Source: an uncultured Bacilli bacterium (lineage in GTDB: Bacteria > Bacillota_I > Bacilli_A > RF39 > UBA660). From it: a stretch of 64,000 bases of DNA. The position numbers and the translations under genes were made by a program. Location: contig CALVKA010000003.1 of the NCBI GenBank assembly GCA_944332475.1, forward strand, positions 62,001 through 126,000, written 5' to 3'. The notes beneath the pieces were generated by a model. It saw nothing but the letters and a program-made list of their open reading frames with translations, did not search any database and was not told the DNA's origin. Positions 2,154 to 39,036 of this stretch are shown here, in pieces (position 1 is the stretch's first letter; every line of letters starts with the position of its first letter).

Positions 2154-2179
2154 CAAAAAAAGCAAGTTATTCTTGCTTT
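2154..2179 (-). terminator. Terminator of the oapA-prsW unit
   Basis: Stem 2160-2166 with 2172-2178 (AAGCAAG / CTTGCTT), followed on the minus strand by seven T. It overlaps the prsW stop codon. Confidence 0.8.
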
Positions 2180-2949
2180 AGTCCACAGTTAGGGCAAAAC
2201 TCTCCTTCTACTTTATGGCCACATCTAGGGCAAAAATTATTTATTATTTTTAATTTCATGGTTTCCTCTGATAACATTTTTACTCTTTTGATTGAAATAG
2301 AATATAAGAAAAAAATAAAGACTACAAAAATCGTTACTATGATTCCTGATTCTGTAAAGCAGCAGAAATCATAGATTCCATGATATAGAGTTGGAATTAA
2401 AATACTTTTTATTTTATTTATTTTTACTTCTTTTTGGTTTCCCATTTTCTCATGGTACTTTGCTAAACTTAAATAATATCCCATAGCAACACCATCACAA
2501 ACATGTCCTGGAATAGCAAGGAGTCCTCTTAATATTCCTACTTGAATACTTGCTATGTTAAAGACATATAAAATATTTTCAAAAGCTGCAAAGCCTAATG
2601 CTACAAATACTGAATATACAGTTATATCATATACTTCATCAAACTCTTTATTCTTATAACCAAAATGATAAGTCATTAACCATTTACAGAACTCTTCTAC
2701 TAAGGCAATTGATATAAATATGTAAATGGTAAATTCTATAAAGTTCATGGTTGTATATTCTTTAGTTAAAAAAGGCATAAAGAAAACCAGTATATATGTT
2801 AATATTAAAACTAAAAAGCACGAAAAAATTCCTGCTGCAAATAGTTTGATTAATAACAATTTAGGTTCTTTATGTCTGTCTTTACTATAAATATAGGCTC
2901 CTAATAAGATGACAGGAAGGATTGCTATTATTAATAATAAATGATACAT
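2167..2949 (-). CDS. prsW: PrsW-family intramembrane metalloprotease with C-terminal zinc ribbon
   Basis: 260 residues, about eight membrane helices. PrsW signatures: LVEEFCKW (Glu85-Glu86), FDEVYDITVY and ALGFAAFENILYV (Glu124-Asn125), then IPGHVCDGVAMGYYLS (His149), with a later HGIYDF. In Bacillus, PrsW makes the first cut in an anti-sigma factor, RsiW, in response to envelope stress. Unusual here is a cytosolic tail at about 240-256 with CPRCG and CPNCG, a zinc ribbon not present in B. subtilis PrsW. The gene follows the oapA-like gene by 32 bases with GGAGGG as SD, so the two are probably co-transcribed. The substrate is unknown; no sigma/anti-sigma pair is in the window. Confidence 0.85.
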   Translation of the reverse strand: MYHLLLIIAILPVILLGAYIYSKDRHKEPKLLLIKLFAAGIFSCFLVLILTYILVFFMPFLTKEYTTMNFIEFTIYIFISIALVEEFCKWLMTYHFGYKNKEFDEVYDITVYSVFVALGFAAFENILYVFNIASIQVGILRGLLAIPGHVCDGVAMGYYLSLAKYHEKMGNQKEVKINKIKSILIPTLYHGIYDFCCFTESGIIVTIFVVFIFFLYSISIKRVKMLSEETMKLKIINNFCPRCGHKVEGEFCPNCGLKQE

Positions 2950-2981: not shown

Positions 2982-3620
2982 TTATTGCTTACTTTTTTTC
3001 AATTGTTTTGGATGATAAATATAGGATAGTGCTTTCGAAGATTCATATACAATAATATTACTTTTATTAATGGCAAAACTTTTTCCAAATGCTTTTCCAC
3101 CGATTGTTAAAGAGGCAACAATAGCGGCTACTATTAGGCTTGTAAAAAAACTATTGGTATTTAAATTGTTAGAAATAATAACTGAGATACTAGCAGAGGC
3201 TGCTCCTGAGACAACTCCACAAATATCTCCTATAACATCACAACAAAAGTTAGATACTTTTTCTGCGTTTTTTACCATTTTAACAGCGATGTTTGCTCCT
3301 CGTACTTTTCTAGAGTTCATGGAATGAAATACTTTCTCATCGGCAGAGGTAACTGCCATTCCTACTACATCAAATACAATATTAATTAAAATAAATAGCA
3401 AAATTAAAATAATACCAAATGGTAAAGATAAATTTGGTATGGTACTTTCTGATATAAAGGATAGGCAAAAGGAAATTGTAAATGCAATGATAATAATTTG
3501 CGTAATCCATTTGCTATCTACTTGTTCTTTCTTCTTTTTTTCTTTTCTTCTTGTTTGTACCTTTAAATTATTTATTTCAACTTTTGCTTGTTCTTTTCTA
3601 TTTTTTCGTCTAAATAACAT
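2982..3620 (-). CDS. oapA: OapA-like OLE-RNA-associated membrane protein
   Basis: 212 residues. A very basic N-terminus (residues 1-35, many K/R) is followed by membrane segments at about 40-60, 66-91, 130-150 and 158-178. Between them is the segment AVTSADEKVFHSMNSRKVRG (89-108), then the DxxxD motif DVIGD (128-132) and GVVSGA. OapA (OAP) of Bacillus halodurans is known to have this short four-helix layout, a DxxxD motif and distant resemblance to DUF21/CorC-type transporter domains. It binds OLE RNA at the membrane. The gene lies 35-40 bases downstream of a structured RNA of OLE size, the defining neighbourhood. SD GAGGA precedes ATG. Alternative: an unrelated DUF21-like membrane protein. 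Confidence 0.82.
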   Translation of the reverse strand: MLFRRKNRKEQAKVEINNLKVQTRRKEKKKKEQVDSKWITQIIIIAFTISFCLSFISESTIPNLSLPFGIILILLFILINIVFDVVGMAVTSADEKVFHSMNSRKVRGANIAVKMVKNAEKVSNFCCDVIGDICGVVSGAASASISVIISNNLNTNSFFTSLIVAAIVASLTIGGKAFGKSFAINKSNIIVYESSKALSYIYHPKQLKKSKQ

Positions 3621-3654
3621 AGTTCCTCATTTCTTTAATAAATGTATTGGCTAT

Positions 3655-4210
3655 AGTATGGTAAACTTTGAATCTTAGGTCAAGTAGAGTTTCTCTAATT
3701 CTTACATTCTCGTTACCAAGAATGCGGTTCCCCTTTTAAAGAATTAATACAATGTCACCATTTGTATGACTTGATTACCACTTAGTATTCACTGCAATCC
3801 CATACTATATACGTTCTAGGAGATTTCCTCACCAATTTCTTATTATTAGTTCTTTTTTGCAAAGACCATTTCATAACGCACATCTATCAAATTGGCCAGT
3901 TTCATAGATGCGATCATTAATCCCAAAATCTTCACGCAAGACAAGCTACACTACACATAACTTTCGCCACGATATAGGTTTAATCCTAGGTCGTAACTGG
4001 TCCATCAGTGTTGTCCGTATAGGCCAGTCACAAGGCTAGGTCTCCAACAGGTAATGGGTCGATTGCGTATGCCATTACGGTCGCCCAGTACCTTTACATC
4101 TTCAGCATCCACCCCGAGTTGGGCACTAGAAGCAAACACCAAAGGTTTCACAGATATGCCCTTAACGGTTGTTTATTCCCGTCTTCCTAATAAGTCTTTG
4201 GACTAGAATA
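3655..4210 (-). ncRNA. ole: Large structured RNA, probable OLE RNA (ornate, large, extremophilic)
   Basis: A roughly 550-base stretch without coding frames, clearly richer in G+C than its surroundings. Read on the minus strand, its ends pair with each other: 4192-4197 with 3663-3668 and 4186-4190 with 3675-3679. Inside are many helices: 4051-4057/4072-4078; 4024-4031/3993-4000 extended by 4036-4040/3985-3989 across an internal loop; 3904-3912/3879-3887; a GUGA-capped hairpin at 3747-3767; 3719-3725/3704-3710. Known: OLE RNAs are about 600 nt, occur in Bacillota and sit just upstream of oapA, as here. I found no RNase P, tmRNA or SRP hallmarks. Ends are approximate and the promoter is not clear. 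The identification rests on size, structure and neighbour, not on alignment. Confidence 0.75.
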
Positions 4211-4223
4211 ACGTGCCAATTAT

Positions 4224-4252
4224 TTAAAGAAAACTACCTAATTTAGGTAGTT
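4224..4252 (-). terminator. Terminator of the glucosaminidase-like gene
   Basis: AACTACCTA pairs with TAGGTAGTT (4232-4240 with 4244-4252), followed on the minus strand by TTTTCTTT. It separates this gene from the downstream ncRNA, so the RNA needs its own promoter or read-through. Confidence 0.8.
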
Positions 4253-4961
4253 AACTTGCTCTTATTTTTTCTACATAACTTTTTATTTTTGCAGGCCAAG
4301 CGGAACTTGCTGCATATTTAGGAGCTATGCTATCGATTGTTGTTAACCCTTGAGAATAATAATTCTTCTGTAGGTTATTAATAAATCCTATGATTCCATC
4401 ATCTAGTGTTGCATATGCTTTATACGATCCACCATTGCAACCAGGAGAACCTTTTTGTCCACCTACATTATTACATGTTCTAACTAGGCTAGAGCAATTA
4501 TAACTGCAGCCAGTTTCATGTAACATAATTGCAACAGCTACATAAGGATCCACGCCTTTTTCAATACATTGACTAGCAATTAAATAACCTTTTCCTGCGA
4601 TGTATCCACTTCCAAGGTTACGATTTAGTTTTTCTGCTAATTCATCAATTGTCATTCCTTCATAGACTTCAATTCTAGGTGGAATGATGACAGAAGCAGG
4701 TGCTACTTCCATATCAATAGCAATTACTTCTGGTTCTGTAGTTTCCTCTTCTGTAGGAGTTGGATTTTCTTCTTTTGTTGAATTTATGATTGTATTGGCA
4801 GAAGTTGCCATATTTTTTAATTGAATTGTGCTATTTGTTGTATCTACTGCTTGTTCTTCTTGTAGTAATTTTGCTTCATCTGATTGTATTACTAAAGCAA
4901 TAGAGATCATTACTATTCCTAATGTTGCTAAAACCGAGCTGATTAGATTTCCTCTTTTCAA
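4251..4961 (-). CDS. Membrane-anchored glucosaminidase-like cell-wall hydrolase
   Basis: 236 residues. There is an N-terminal signal anchor (about 5-25), a Thr/Glu/Pro-rich linker to about residue 85, then a lysozyme-like domain. The domain has YLIASQCIEKGVDPYVAVAI, the likely catalytic Glu in MLHETG, CNNVGGQKG, a GGSYKAYATLDDGI block and YAASSAWPAKIKSYV. This pattern fits Firmicutes LytD/FlgJ-type N-acetylglucosaminidases that cut the glycan strand outside the membrane. The longest frame begins with GTG at 4970, but GAGGTGA overlaps that codon and lies 5 bases before TTG at 4961, so TTG is the preferred start. Four or more cysteines suggest disulfides. Confidence 0.72.
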   Translation of the reverse strand: MKRGNLISSVLATLGIVMISIALVIQSDEAKLLQEEQAVDTTNSTIQLKNMATSANTIINSTKEENPTPTEEETTEPEVIAIDMEVAPASVIIPPRIEVYEGMTIDELAEKLNRNLGSGYIAGKGYLIASQCIEKGVDPYVAVAIMLHETGCSYNCSSLVRTCNNVGGQKGSPGCNGGSYKAYATLDDGIIGFINNLQKNYYSQGLTTIDSIAPKYAASSAWPAKIKSYVEKIRAS

Positions 4962-4994
4962 ATTAGTCACCTCATTGTTTTTTGTAACACTACC

Positions 4995-5023
4995 ATTGTA
5001 GCTTATTTTATAAAACTTGTCAA
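4995..5023 (-). promoter_or_regulatory. Sigma-A promoter of the glucosaminidase-like gene
   Basis: On the minus strand TTGACA (5018-5023) is followed after 17 bp by TACAAT (4995-5000), a near-consensus housekeeping promoter about 35 bp before the TTG start. Confidence 0.85.
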
Positions 5024-5029
5024 TTTTTG

Positions 5030-6589
5030 TTACTTTATCTTAAATGTCATTGGTGCTTTTTTATATACAACTATTAAGGCTATTATAGAATATAGGATGG
5101 TTGCTACTATAGCGATAATAGAAAAGCTAATCGTTGACATTTCAAAGTCTGTAAATGAATATGCTACGATATATGTTGCTAGCGATATGATGGAATATGT
5201 AATACTTTTCATGGACATATTTTTATCATATGGTTGAAATAAATAGTAAATCACTAGATAGTGAATTGAGAAAAATATACTTAGTACAATAATAAAAATT
5301 GGTATTGCTATATAGTTTATTATATTCGTTGTTCCTCCGGATAAGTATAATAAAAGTGGAAGTCCTATCGCAATTACCGATGCTGGTATTAGGTTTACTT
5401 TTGATACTGTTAATACTCTAGTTTTAAATATATTTAAAATCACTTTAGGATTTCTATAAAAATTAAATGTTAACATAGAATGATCACAGTTATAAAACAT
5501 AGCTTGTGTAATGATAGATCCTCGGTTAATAAAGTACATAACAATAATAAACCAGGCAATATTATTTAATAGAAAGTCATTTAAGTTTTTTTGTAATACA
5601 GGACTAAAGTGAATAACGATTGCGGTTGTAACAATTACTAACAAGGAGATTGTTGCGAACCATTTGGCACTTCGTAATAAGATTTCTTTATGGCGTTCAA
5701 AGAAAATGGTATTGAATAAGTCATAGCCTTTTTTTCCTTTTAATTTTCTTTCATCGATTTTTTTATCTTTATCTTTAATATCGACCATTGCTTGACGAGA
5801 ATAAGCTCTTGCTTGTTCACTATTCATGGCTGCTACTTTGGTATTTAATCTTTTATAGATTAATTTATAATTGTCTATTTTCATTAGGCCAATATAACTA
5901 ATGATAGCTAGAGGTATAAAAATAAGATCTAGTATAGCTATTATTGGAGTGGTAATAGTGATTTGTATTCTTGGTAATAAGCAGGCTATAATACTTAGTA
6001 TAATAATCGTCCAATAAAGTGGATAATTATATGTTAGTGCTATTTTATATTTGTTATAGTGAAGAACATTTAGTCTTTCTCCTATGACTCTTCCTAAGAA
6101 ACCAAATACAAGATATAGAACAATAATAGGGCTTTGTATTAAGAACCATAATCCAATACTATGCGTTATGAGATTTATTAGTAATTCTGTCCAAAGGGTC
6201 GCTTTCATATACTCTTTGGCATTCATATTAAATAGAACAATTGAAAAATATTTTTTTGTACTTGTTGTTAATACTCTATTGTTAAAGAATATACCGATGA
6301 TAGTAAATATAAAATAAACATGTAGTATTCCTGTTGTGATATTCTTAGGTGTTAATACTGTTGCAATCATATAAATAATCCAGAAATATAAAAATTTAAA
6401 AAAAAGATTTTTTATGGTTGATACTATTAATGCCAATACTCTTATTACACTTTTGGCTTTGGCACTTTTATATAGTCCATCACCCGGGAATAAATCTTTT
6501 AAAATAGGAAATTTTTTGATGTTATAGATAAAGGAATTAATTGCATAAGTAATATCTATTTTAAAAGACATTTTTAAACTATTTATCAT
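5030..6589 (-). CDS. ABC transporter permease, large polytopic membrane subunit
   Basis: 519 residues with about 12 hydrophobic helices in two halves. A charged cytosolic segment lies between them (about 255-300, KDKDKKIDERKLKGKKG). No catalytic motif is seen. Its start overlaps the end of the ATPase gene by 11 bases, so translation is probably coupled and the two proteins form one ABC-2-like exporter. The substrate cannot be told; two-gene units like this often export peptides, drugs or lipids. Its downstream end lies inside the promoter region of the glucosaminidase-like gene. Confidence 0.75.
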   Translation of the reverse strand: MINSLKMSFKIDITYAINSFIYNIKKFPILKDLFPGDGLYKSAKAKSVIRVLALIVSTIKNLFFKFLYFWIIYMIATVLTPKNITTGILHVYFIFTIIGIFFNNRVLTTSTKKYFSIVLFNMNAKEYMKATLWTELLINLITHSIGLWFLIQSPIIVLYLVFGFLGRVIGERLNVLHYNKYKIALTYNYPLYWTIIILSIIACLLPRIQITITTPIIAILDLIFIPLAIISYIGLMKIDNYKLIYKRLNTKVAAMNSEQARAYSRQAMVDIKDKDKKIDERKLKGKKGYDLFNTIFFERHKEILLRSAKWFATISLLVIVTTAIVIHFSPVLQKNLNDFLLNNIAWFIIVMYFINRGSIITQAMFYNCDHSMLTFNFYRNPKVILNIFKTRVLTVSKVNLIPASVIAIGLPLLLYLSGGTTNIINYIAIPIFIIVLSIFFSIHYLVIYYLFQPYDKNMSMKSITYSIISLATYIVAYSFTDFEMSTISFSIIAIVATILYSIIALIVVYKKAPMTFKIK

Positions 6590-7289
6590 TTTCTTCGTCC
6601 TTTAAGCTAGCAATAATTTTATCTTTATATTTCTTTGTATTTAAATTTTTCTTTTCTACTAGTTCTAGTTTTTTATTATTTAATATTACGATTTCGTCAC
6701 ATAAATCTAGTGCTAATTCTAATATGTGAGTAGAAAAGATTAAGATATGGTCCTTTTTCATGTTTTTTAATAATTGTTTCATTTCTTCTTGTACAACAAT
6801 ATCTAGAGATGTTAATGGTTCATCTAGTAATAATACTTTAGGGTTTGCTATAAAGTTAATTAACATTTGCATTTTATTTTTCATTCCATGAGAATATTCT
6901 TTTAATAATTTATCTTGATCTTCTTTATTTATTTTTACTAAGTCAAAATATTCATCTATTGTTTTTTCTTCTTTGATATTGTCTTTATTGATTTCTAGGA
7001 AAAAAGTTAGAAATTCCTTCCCTGTTAAAAATTCTGGTACTGTTGGTGTTGAAATAACATAACCAATATCCTCTGTTCTTAATTCATTTTCTCCATAGTT
7101 ATCTGATAGGATAAATTCTCCTCTATCTATTTCAACATCTTCATTTAAGCAGTTAAAAAAAGTTGTCTTACCTGCACCGTTTCTACCAATTAAGCCATAG
7201 ATTTTTCCTTCTTCAAATGTAAAGTTAATATCTTTTAATACTTCTTTTTCGCCATAAGATTTTGTTAAGTTTTTTATTGCTAATTTCAT
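6579..7289 (-). CDS. ABC transporter ATP-binding protein
   Basis: 236 residues. Walker A is GRNGAGKTT (about 36-44). The signature is the degenerate YSHGMKNKMQ, typical of ABC-2/CcmA-type ATPases. Walker B with D-loop is VLLLDEPLTSLD and the switch His is in FSTHI. It powers the overlapping permease gene. AGGAGG is 7 bases before ATG. The C-terminus is lysine-rich and short, without a regulatory domain. Confidence 0.93.
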   Translation of the reverse strand: MKLAIKNLTKSYGEKEVLKDINFTFEEGKIYGLIGRNGAGKTTFFNCLNEDVEIDRGEFILSDNYGENELRTEDIGYVISTPTVPEFLTGKEFLTFFLEINKDNIKEEKTIDEYFDLVKINKEDQDKLLKEYSHGMKNKMQMLINFIANPKVLLLDEPLTSLDIVVQEEMKQLLKNMKKDHILIFSTHILELALDLCDEIVILNNKKLELVEKKNLNTKKYKDKIIASLKDEENDK

Positions 7290-34156: not shown

Positions 34157-35509
34157 TTATTCTAAACTTTCTACCCAGGAGATTATTTTTTGCCATGTAG
34201 ATGGGCCTACCACTCCGTTTTCTGGTAGGCTGTAGCGTCTTTGGATAGATTTAATGGATTCTTCTGTTAATTCGTCGAATGTTCCATTTACTTTTACTCC
34301 AGGAATTTGATGAGTTTTTTCACAAATAATATATAAAAAGTTTTGTAAGTTTTCGATATCATCTCCACTCATACCTTTGGAAAGAAAAATGCCAGGATAG
34401 AGTTTGTCTTCATAATATAGATATTCTTCTGGTATTGTTTCTCTTGTTTGATTATAGGCTGTTACTAAAGCGTTCCAAGTATTTTTGTCTACTACTCCGG
34501 TTGCTTCTATATCATAATCTGTTTGAAAAGCCACTACCATTTCTTTTGTATCTTCTGTAAAGTCTTCGCCTGCTAAATTTAGCATTGGTATATCAGAGTC
34601 AAAATAGGATAAAAAGTTCAATAAATAGTTTAAGGCTCTAATATAGGGACCGCTTTCTCCTTCTTGTAACGTATCTCCATATGGAAACTCTACTTCTTCT
34701 ACACTGATACCTTCACCAGCTAAGTCGGCAACTTTTTTTACGGCATTATATAAATATTTTACTTCATACCAAGTGGGCTTATCAACTTCTCCTGTTACTG
34801 GTAAGTCAAAAATTTCCTGGAAAGCTTTAACGCTTTCTTCCATATCTGTTGTAAAGAAGATGGTTTCTTCTTCTATTTTAGGAATGGCCGGATAATTATT
34901 ACTAATTCTATTTAATTGTACTTTTAATTGTCTTACATAGTTTCCTGCAGATCCTAGACGAAATGGAAAGCCTGGATAAGATGGAATATTAGGGGCAACA
35001 GGGGCGTTGTAAACAATATCAATATTATCTCCATAATATTCTTTTAATATTTCAATTGGTGCTAAACCAGCTTGAGCAAGTTCTACACTTCCCCATTGTG
35101 AAAGTCCATCACACTTTGTATTGATTCCATCACAGTAAGTGGCAAATAGCGGTTGAATTTGAGAGCCTTTGATGATGTAGTTGTTGAATATATCGTCTAC
35201 AATTTCTGAAATATTTTCAAAAAATTGAGAGTCTTCTTTAAACGTTTGGTCATAGGATGGACTACTTGTGATATCAAAATTATATCCTTGTGCTGGGTAC
35301 CATTCATTATAAATTCTATTTAGAGCAAATGATATCTGAGCTAGAATATTTGCTTTAATGGCATCTGTTGGCCATGATGGATAAATTTCATTTGAGGCAA
35401 CATTTTTAATATATTCTGGAAAAGAAACGGTTATGTTTTTAGCAGCCGCATTAGGTGCCCCTAAATGAACAACGATTTCTGTTGGAACAACTGGAGTTCT
35501 AACTGCCAT
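34157..35509 (-). CDS. SleC-like protein: SpoIID-type N-terminal domain with three peptidoglycan-binding domains
   Basis: 450 residues. The N-terminal part (1-170) has VSFPEYIKNVASNEIYPSWP, a DAIKANILAQISFALNRIY block and CDGLSQWGSVELAQAGL. This is the SpoIID-related module found in clostridial SleC-type cortex proteins. Then come three PG_binding_1 repeats (about 185-255, 270-350, 370-445), each ending in the GxxDxxTW pattern (GEVDKPTW, GVVDKNTW, GVVGPSTW). Likely role: binding or cutting cortex peptidoglycan during spore formation or germination. It overlaps the upstream gene, which encodes what is usually the N-terminal domain of the same protein. The first in-frame codon is TTG at 35518, but ATG at 35509 fits better. 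Confidence 0.75.
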   Translation of the reverse strand: MAVRTPVVPTEIVVHLGAPNAAAKNITVSFPEYIKNVASNEIYPSWPTDAIKANILAQISFALNRIYNEWYPAQGYNFDITSSPSYDQTFKEDSQFFENISEIVDDIFNNYIIKGSQIQPLFATYCDGINTKCDGLSQWGSVELAQAGLAPIEILKEYYGDNIDIVYNAPVAPNIPSYPGFPFRLGSAGNYVRQLKVQLNRISNNYPAIPKIEEETIFFTTDMEESVKAFQEIFDLPVTGEVDKPTWYEVKYLYNAVKKVADLAGEGISVEEVEFPYGDTLQEGESGPYIRALNYLLNFLSYFDSDIPMLNLAGEDFTEDTKEMVVAFQTDYDIEATGVVDKNTWNALVTAYNQTRETIPEEYLYYEDKLYPGIFLSKGMSGDDIENLQNFLYIICEKTHQIPGVKVNGTFDELTEESIKSIQRRYSLPENGVVGPSTWQKIISWVESLE

Positions 35510-35921
35510 TTTGATCAATTCCTTCCATATTAATTTCTGGAATCATTTTTATATATTGAATGACGCCAGTGTTTCCAAAGATTGCAACATCATATTTTTT
35601 AATTCTTTCATATCCTTCATGAATCGCTGTCACGTCATACATCGCATATTGGGCATCGTCTCCTGGTTTAAAGTTTTTATTTTCTGCAGGAGATGGCAAT
35701 TCAATATTACTAATCATACCACTAGAATCTGTTAGGCCACTAAAAAACAATACTTTTTGTCCATCGATATCCTTAGTAACTAAAATACGAGTATCAGGAA
35801 TGGGAATCGCTCGATAAGCAGTAAATACCTCTACTTTTAATCTACCTGTCGATGGATTTTCTTGGATAAAATTTTCATAACTCTCTGTTTGTTTAAAATC
35901 TTCTAGATTTACAAAATTCAT
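35499..35921 (-). CDS. Carboxypeptidase-regulatory-like beta domain protein, SleC N-terminal-like
   Basis: 140 residues. The beta-sandwich pattern is LKVEVFTAYRAIPIPDTRIL, a SGLTDSSGMISNIELPSPA block and DVTAIHEGYERIKKYDVAIF. In clostridial cortex-lytic proteins of SleC type such a domain precedes the SpoIID-like region in one chain. Here it is a separate gene overlapping the next by about 11 bases. No signal peptide, like mother-cell-made spore proteins. It directly abuts the LysM gene upstream, forming a three-gene operon. Confidence 0.65.
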   Translation of the reverse strand: MNFVNLEDFKQTESYENFIQENPSTGRLKVEVFTAYRAIPIPDTRILVTKDIDGQKVLFFSGLTDSSGMISNIELPSPAENKNFKPGDDAQYAMYDVTAIHEGYERIKKYDVAIFGNTGVIQYIKMIPEINMEGIDQNGS

Positions 35922-36749
35922 CTATATTTCCCTCACTTTCAGTACTTGACCAATTTGTAAATTGGTAGATGTTAAATTGTTTAAATCCATTAAGTTAATT
36001 ACTGTTGTATTATATCGTCTAGCAATATCATATAGATTGTCCCCTTTTTTTACTGTATAAGTTTCATATTGGGGCTCTATATATCCTTCTCCATAACATT
36101 CTTTCACTGTTTGGGACGGTGTCTCTTCTTCGGTTGGTATTTTTAGGATTTGTCCTACGGATAGAATTGTTGTTTGCAGATTATTGGCATTCATAATATC
36201 GTCTACTGTTGTATTAAATAGTTGAGCAATGCTATATAGACTGTCTCCTGCTTTTACTTCATATTCTTTATAATTGGTCTGTATATTTTGCGTTGGTATT
36301 TTTAATGTTTGCCCTATGGATAATAAATTACTGGTCAAGTTATTAGCTTGTTTGATGGTTTCTACTGTTACGCCATATTTTAGGGCAATTTGATACAGGT
36401 TATCTCCATTTTTCACTGTATAAATGGTATAGTTGTCCGTTTGATTACCACTTCCTTCTACTGGAACTTGTAGTTGTTGTCCAACGGATAGAATTGTCGT
36501 AGAAAGATTGTTTAGCTCTATCAGTTCATTTATCGTAGTATTATATTGTATTGCGATTTTGTAAAGAGTATCTCCACTTTTTACTGTATAGGTTGTTGTT
36601 GATTGGGTTGTCGGAATTTGTAATGTTTGTCCAACATTGATGGTGTTGCTTGTCAAAGAGTTTACTCTTTTTATTGTTTCAACAGGAATACCAAATTGTT
36701 TACTGATACCATATAAGGTATCTCCTTTTTGCACAGTATAATTTCTCAT
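35922..36749 (-). CDS. Protein of five LysM domains
   Basis: 275 residues made almost entirely of five LysM units, each starting Y(T/E)VxxGD(T/N/S)LY.I and ending (V/I)GQxL(K/Q)(I/V)P, starting near residues 4, 53, 107, 164 and 232. There is a short linker with a Cys before the fifth. LysM binds N-acetylglucosamine glycan. No catalytic domain and no signal peptide are present, as in SafA-like spore proteins that bind the cortex surface. First gene of an operon with two SleC-like genes, behind a sigma-E-like promoter. Likely an assembly factor of the spore envelope. Confidence 0.85.
   Translation of the reverse strand: MRNYTVQKGDTLYGISKQFGIPVETIKRVNSLTSNTINVGQTLQIPTTQSTTTYTVKSGDTLYKIAIQYNTTINELIELNNLSTTILSVGQQLQVPVEGSGNQTDNYTIYTVKNGDNLYQIALKYGVTVETIKQANNLTSNLLSIGQTLKIPTQNIQTNYKEYEVKAGDSLYSIAQLFNTTVDDIMNANNLQTTILSVGQILKIPTEEETPSQTVKECYGEGYIEPQYETYTVKKGDNLYDIARRYNTTVINLMDLNNLTSTNLQIGQVLKVREI

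Positions 36750-36840: not shown

Positions 36841-39036
<2,196 letters not shown>

Follow-up and report, generated by a model that had tools for sequence, protein, structure and literature searches.

OLE is a large, membrane-associated bacterial RNA. The family RF01071 of Rfam, with the RNAs of H. halodurans and of Clostridium species, provides the main reference for comparison. Closer to the present case, OLE has been reported in RF39 and TANB77 gut bacteria, where it is correlated with sporulation genes (Fernando and Breaker 2024, PMC11332333), and RF39 bacteria have been predicted to sporulate (PMC10868615).

The 64-kb stretch of DNA analysed here (called the window) comes from a draft genome of 1.43 Mb, and the host is very probably one of the reduced RF39-type gut Bacilli. 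Its relatives in the class are MAGs of 1.0–1.7 Mb, several of them from animal guts, and the class also takes in code-4 mycoplasma-like genomes that read TGA inside a conserved gene. Judged from the sequence, the best explanation of the locus, to which we assign a probability of roughly 0.9, is that such a host carries a functional full-length OLE RNA together with its partner gene oapA.

The window copy shares with the RNAs of H. halodurans and Clostridium the match to the whole model, the helices P1, P3, P4 and P5–P9, domain 2, the A-rich loop L4, the complementarity of L5 and L6, the palindromic loop L9.3 and the position of oapA next downstream. It differs from them in its AT-rich helices, in having neither the anti-Shine-Dalgarno mimic for bS21 nor, in the genome, the OapC family, and in the glucosaminidase gene upstream, the RNA's own promoter being absent in the window's genus. 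Compared to the 'variant 1' and 'variant 2' OLEs of RF39 and TANB77 (PMC11332333), the lineage is probably the same, OapA is likewise kept, and OapC, MpfA and probably OapB are likewise missing; unlike 'variant 2', the window copy retains P7 and P8. The bit scores are not comparable between the two studies, because that survey used its own model. Since OLE in RF39 had thus been published in 2024, the suggestion of the first-pass annotation that this locus widens the range of OLE does not hold. What is added here is the loss of the promoter in one genus, the joint presence or absence of RNA and protein at a locus that is otherwise preserved, and a set of mini-OLE RNAs from outside the window; in the available text of PMC11332333, neither the promoter loss nor the mini-OLEs of ca 380 nt are described.

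Identity and fold of the OLE RNA

The match to RF01071 (Rfam 15) runs from 4235 to 3631 on the minus strand and covers model positions 1–616 of 616, with a score of 377.5 bits (E 2.4e-107), the gathering score of the family being 50 bits. Across all 64 kb of the window, OLE is the sole Rfam family above its gathering cut-off. The first-pass annotation had proposed an OLE RNA at 3655–4210, to be checked with this very model; the identification is confirmed over the full length and the location was right, while the match is slightly longer at both ends. The stretch is indeed non-coding and lies between genes at 4251–4970 and 2982–3620, both on the minus strand. It is also GC-rich for this genome, as had been noted, with a G+C content of 0.39–0.45 compared to 0.25–0.32 around most of the stretch and 0.30 for the window. 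The folding energy of the minus strand is −174.3 kcal/mol, against −144.5 ± 5.1 kcal/mol for shuffled sequences (z −5.8), and the plus strand has a z of −3.4.

For the secondary structure, 29 full-length relatives from the same family were aligned, and the pairs of the Rfam structure, with P1 and P3 added by hand, were counted. Double-sided changes are found at 119 of 169 base pairs, compared to 80.5 ± 3.6 after shuffling, and the number of double-change cells is 728, compared to 234 ± 14. Furthermore, 87.3% of the cells are paired, against 73.9% in the shuffled alignments and 39–45% with the partners slid; relatedness remains in the shuffle control and is removed by the slid one, from which the gap is wide. 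The covariation thus bears out the OLE secondary structure and, together with the whole-model match, identifies the RNA at 3631–4235 (minus strand) as a genuine full-length OLE.

The closing of the structure turned out to be different from the one first read by eye, in which 4186–4197 was paired with 3663–3679. On the same alignment, this helix has a double change in 2 of 11 pairs, where the shuffle mean is 1.6, and it was rejected for want of covariation support. The true partner of 4187–4201 is 3832–3849, the two minus-strand segments forming P3 and P3.1 (12 bp in two parts), a pairing that was found by hand and that has double changes in 7 of 12 pairs when counted on the alignment. Twelve base pairs is the typical length of P3 plus P3.1, a stem that has been proposed to span the membrane (PMC12265935). 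P1 consists of 6 bp, with AUUGGC at 4215–4220 pairing with GCCAAU at 3646–3651, both on the minus strand. Five of its six pairs show double changes, and 67% of the cells are paired, a value lowered by one-column alignment slips. As read from these pairings, P1 and the 12-bp P3 are the closing helices of the window OLE. The many strong internal helices that had been pointed out are present, among them a hairpin with a GUGA loop at 3747–3767 (minus strand, helix 18), in which all eight pairs covary; a 9-bp hairpin with a GUAA loop at 3704–3725 (minus strand) corresponds to helices 20–21 of the covariation count.

The loops that make dimer contacts in known OLE structures (PMC12286853 and PMC12265935) can also be recognised. 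P4 with its A-rich loop L4, a dimer contact in the published cryo-EM work, is at 4164–4183 on the minus strand, as given by the Rfam structure and covariation. The loop L5 (4120–4126, minus strand) carries UGCC, which is complementary to GGCA of L6 (4075–4070) and nearly invariant among the 29 relatives. The loop L9.3 carries the palindrome UGGCCA at 3893–3898 (minus strand), and both sequence and alignment suggest a symmetric kissing loop. In a hand count over the relatives that have this loop, the central letters are palindromic in 23 of 26, with four kinds of palindrome (GGCC 18, AGCU 3, GUAC 1, UCGA 1) and three non-palindromic cases; the evidence is that of the four central letters only, read by eye from the alignment. 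The switching from one palindrome to another is as predicted by an RNA–RNA self-contact, and switching among GGCC, GAUC and AGCU has been described at this loop (PMC12286853), with which the relatives of the window agree. Counting palindromes over a wide segment around L9.3 is uninformative (26 of 26, and 21 when shuffled).

Next to P5, on its upstream side, is the k-turn strand J4a/5 (CAUAUCUGUGAAAC, 4145–4158, minus strand), recognised by its conserved letters in the alignment and having UGGAG at 4042–4046 as partner; its role in the k-turn has been described (PMC9723947 and PMC12286853). What can be read from the sequence is thus an OLE fold with P1, P3, P4, the k-turn letters and all three kinds of dimer contact, namely L4, L5–L6 and L9.3. 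In P6, on the other hand, the CCUCC of the anti-Shine-Dalgarno mimic is found in none of the 29 relatives. This mimic, which binds bS21, is an accessory element that the OLE of H. halodurans does not need for its general function (PMC12054373).

OapA and the helper proteins

The gene at 2982–3620 (minus strand, 212 aa) starts 26 bases past the 3' strand of P1. That an OapA-like gene directly follows the RNA had been proposed from the start, and the motif, the co-occurrence and the predicted fold all confirm it. The DxxxD motif, of the DVIGD type, is present in 33 of 33 relatives in the family and reads DVIGD in the window. An AlphaFold2 model based on 31 family sequences (pLDDT 86.4) has four long helices, the membrane helices being predicted at residues 36–60, 66–92, 119–153 and 157–185, and all of its top five matches in the PDB are structures of CNNM/CorC Mg2+ transporters. 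These matches come from the fold search; searching PDB sequences with the OapA profile gave no hit. At the sequence level, 21 of the 31 members match Pfam CNNM at E<=0.01; the window protein matches no Pfam family above cut-off, and CBS and CorC domains are absent from it. The option of a stand-alone MpfA/CorC transporter was rejected on account of these missing domains. According to the model, the gene encodes OapA with a CNNM-like four-helix fold, which shares its predicted fold with the CNNM, MpfA and CorC Mg2+ transporters and differs from them in the DxxxD motif, the four membrane helices without CBS or CorC domains, and a basic N-terminal tail of 37 residues in the window's clade.

Tails of this kind, of 26–39 residues, occur in most OapA proteins of the clade with long OLEs and are absent from OapA of the short-OLE clade. 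A link between tail and long OLE was considered and set aside, because the association rests on a single OLE change on the tree and is inseparable from shared descent.

The L7Ae family, to which OapC belongs, is missing from the host genome, and no member scores above cut-off in the 60 genomes of the family examined, as compared to 28 matches above cut-off among the 39 genomes from elsewhere in the class, where it is common. The k-turn letters beside P5 are kept in the OLE alignment. The usual place of oapB is between map and infA. In the host these two genes overlap, leaving no gene between them and no KOW gene there, and OapB is probably gone. With no OapC, no oapB at its usual place and no P6 mimic, the particle would probably be reduced to the RNA with OapA.

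Full CNNM/MpfA proteins are found in one of the 60 family genomes (G030, which has no OLE), compared to most genomes of the other families. Almost all of the family thus lacks the protein, 24 of the 25 members devoid of OLE among them, and MpfA is therefore no substitute for OLE in this family. This calls for caution with the published anticorrelation.

In the particle as we envisage it, the RNA would dimerise through L4–L4, L5–L6 and L9.3–L9.3 contacts, and the RNA dimer would attach to a dimer of OapA in the membrane; following the published model, P3 would run through the bilayer or alongside it. The particle would take part in metal-ion and stress homeostasis.

Transcription of the unit

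Outside the window's genus, a sigma-A promoter is found shortly before P1, matching at 10–12 of 12 positions in 25 of 28 loci and at 9 in the other three. Within the genus, no such promoter is seen before OLE in any of the seven loci, the scores being 5–7 and no better than in shuffled sequence. What is found instead, directly upstream in all seven OLE-bearing members, is a glucosaminidase-domain gene (4251–4970 in the window, minus strand; PF01832, 30.8 bits with a cut-off of 30.2), whose stop codon is ca 30 bases before P1 in the genus and 6 in G008. This gene has a sigma-A promoter, TTGACA-17-TACAAT, at 4995–5023 (minus strand), and a promoter like it is kept in all congeners readable there, with or without OLE. 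Downstream of oapA there is a gene for a prsW-like intramembrane protease (2167–2949, minus strand; PF13367, 112.5 bits), after which an intrinsic terminator at 2159–2179 (minus strand) ends the unit. Further upstream, the window has a two-gene ABC exporter at 5030–7289, including a 519-aa membrane protein with no Pfam match; a similar protein of 521 aa is found at the same place in the outgroup G032.

The lost sigma-A promoter and the position of OLE between the glucosaminidase gene and oapA/prsW suggest that the RNA is made by read-through and processing. The glucosaminidase gene and OLE would then probably share a transcript, and the promoter at 5023–4995 probably drives the whole unit, such that glucosaminidase, OLE, oapA and prsW would form one transcription unit.

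It is important to note that a hairpin at 4232–4252 (minus strand), between the glucosaminidase stop codon and OLE, resembles a weak terminator and would limit read-through. It has a counterpart in six of the seven species, is missing in G008, and is also found in some congeners without OLE. The last two facts make it, most simply, an old, leaky terminator of the glucosaminidase gene, which RNA polymerase would pass, OLE being excised from the transcript afterwards.

The same hairpin is the first argument for another option, namely an unrecognised promoter for an alternative, perhaps sporulation, sigma factor located within the glucosaminidase gene or immediately ahead of it, so that no read-through would be needed. 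A 10-of-12 match inside that gene (GTTACA-16-TATAAT at 4524–4497) and the spore-related genes of the window also speak for it. However, promoter-like matches in this region are no more numerous than in shuffles, no motif is conserved there beyond what the coding constraint accounts for, and the hairpin behaves as described above, being present also in OLE-less species and missing in G008. We consider such a promoter possible but rather unlikely, and read-through with processing remains the preferred reading.

The spore-related hints in the window are a CotZ-like gene at 186–590, a SpoIID-like gene with peptidoglycan-binding repeats at 34157–35518, a gene with five LysM domains at 35922–36749 and a collagen-like gene at 36841–37968.

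Between OLE and oapA, no terminator is found in the genus, while several relatives outside it have one. This arrangement in the window, with neither terminator nor promoter in between and the oapA start so close to P1, is what one would expect if the RNA were a riboswitch-like leader acting in cis on oapA and not a free RNA. However, OLE has its own terminator before oapA in G028, G040 and G019, it is ca 1 kb away from oapA in G051, G053 and G020, and the two are on different contigs in G018 (L080 and L108). In H. halodurans, moreover, OLE is a free, processed RNA (PMC11332333). A cis-acting leader is thus highly improbable, and we retain the free OLE RNA.

Presence, loss and reduction across the family

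Of the 60 family genomes, 35 have OLE; a wider sample of the family has it in 186 of 291 genomes, and it is in none of the 39 genomes from the other families of the class. In a wider comparison, the low-scoring matches in G547 and G588 are fragments or broken copies and were left out. Among the 60 genomes, both OLE and OapA are present in 33, OLE only in two, OapA only in none, and neither in 25. In one of the two exceptions (G033) the locus is cut by a contig end; in the other (G049, locus L088) the OLE is of full length and oapA was not found within 6 kb or in the draft genome. In the OLE-less congeners G004, G006, G011 and G014, prsW comes directly after the glucosaminidase gene, so that these sister species lack ole and oapA jointly while the rest of the locus is preserved. 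The unit would accordingly be dispensable, and the locus offers a natural comparison, with and without ole-oapA, inside one genus. Trees of the glucosaminidase gene give about five changes of OLE presence over the genus and two outgroups (4–6 in bootstraps, with many forks weak). A related glucosaminidase-like gene also precedes OLE and oapA in the outgroup G032, which makes repeated loss the simplest reading of the patchy distribution.

These losses raise the question of whether the RNA is a decaying OLE that is no longer functional, its promoter and helpers lost and the unit deleted in sisters. The missing sigma-A promoter, the absence of OapC and of oapB from its usual place, the ca five changes within the genus, and an L9.3 palindrome that is broken in the congeners G002 and G015 would all fit. 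Nevertheless, the window RNA fits the whole model at 377.5 bits, and compensatory changes reveal structural constraint in the congeners. Every congener with OLE also has an unbroken OapA reading frame in which the residues of the motif do not vary, and where the RNA disappears the protein goes with it, instead of the two decaying separately. Decay is thus very unlikely, and a functional OLE with OapA remains the best reading.

In two other genera, the genomes G050, G475 and G414 have OLE RNAs of only 378–381 nt, scoring 134–139 bits (L107:6001–6381, L144:1501–1878 and L145:1501–1878). Each has a promoter in front and, directly behind, an oapA gene whose product carries DVVGD. What these mini-OLEs are missing is P5–P8 together with the k-turn; P1, P4 and its loop, the 3' domain and a short P9 whose loop is the palindrome UGAUCA are all retained. 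A second OLE in G040 was considered as a further case and rejected, since it runs off the contig end. As the published survey applied a cut-off of 235 bits on its own model (PMC11332333), RNAs of this kind may have been left out there.

As a discovery the locus is ordinary, and its use lies in dissecting OLE. The natural losses help to sort the parts of the particle: OapC, the bS21 mimic and probably OapB have gone, whereas the RNA persists with OapA and the dimer loops, and the mini-OLEs point to an even smaller core. Tentatively, the OLE particle of this family may consist of the RNA and OapA only, with the ca 380-nt OLE (P1, P4, a short P9 with its palindromic loop, and domain 2) as the smallest core still found alongside oapA, and in the window's genus the RNA may have ceased to be a gene in its own right and be cut free from the mRNA of an operon that encodes a peptidoglycan hydrolase. 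If this is true, the level of OLE in the genus would be tied to cell-wall turnover.
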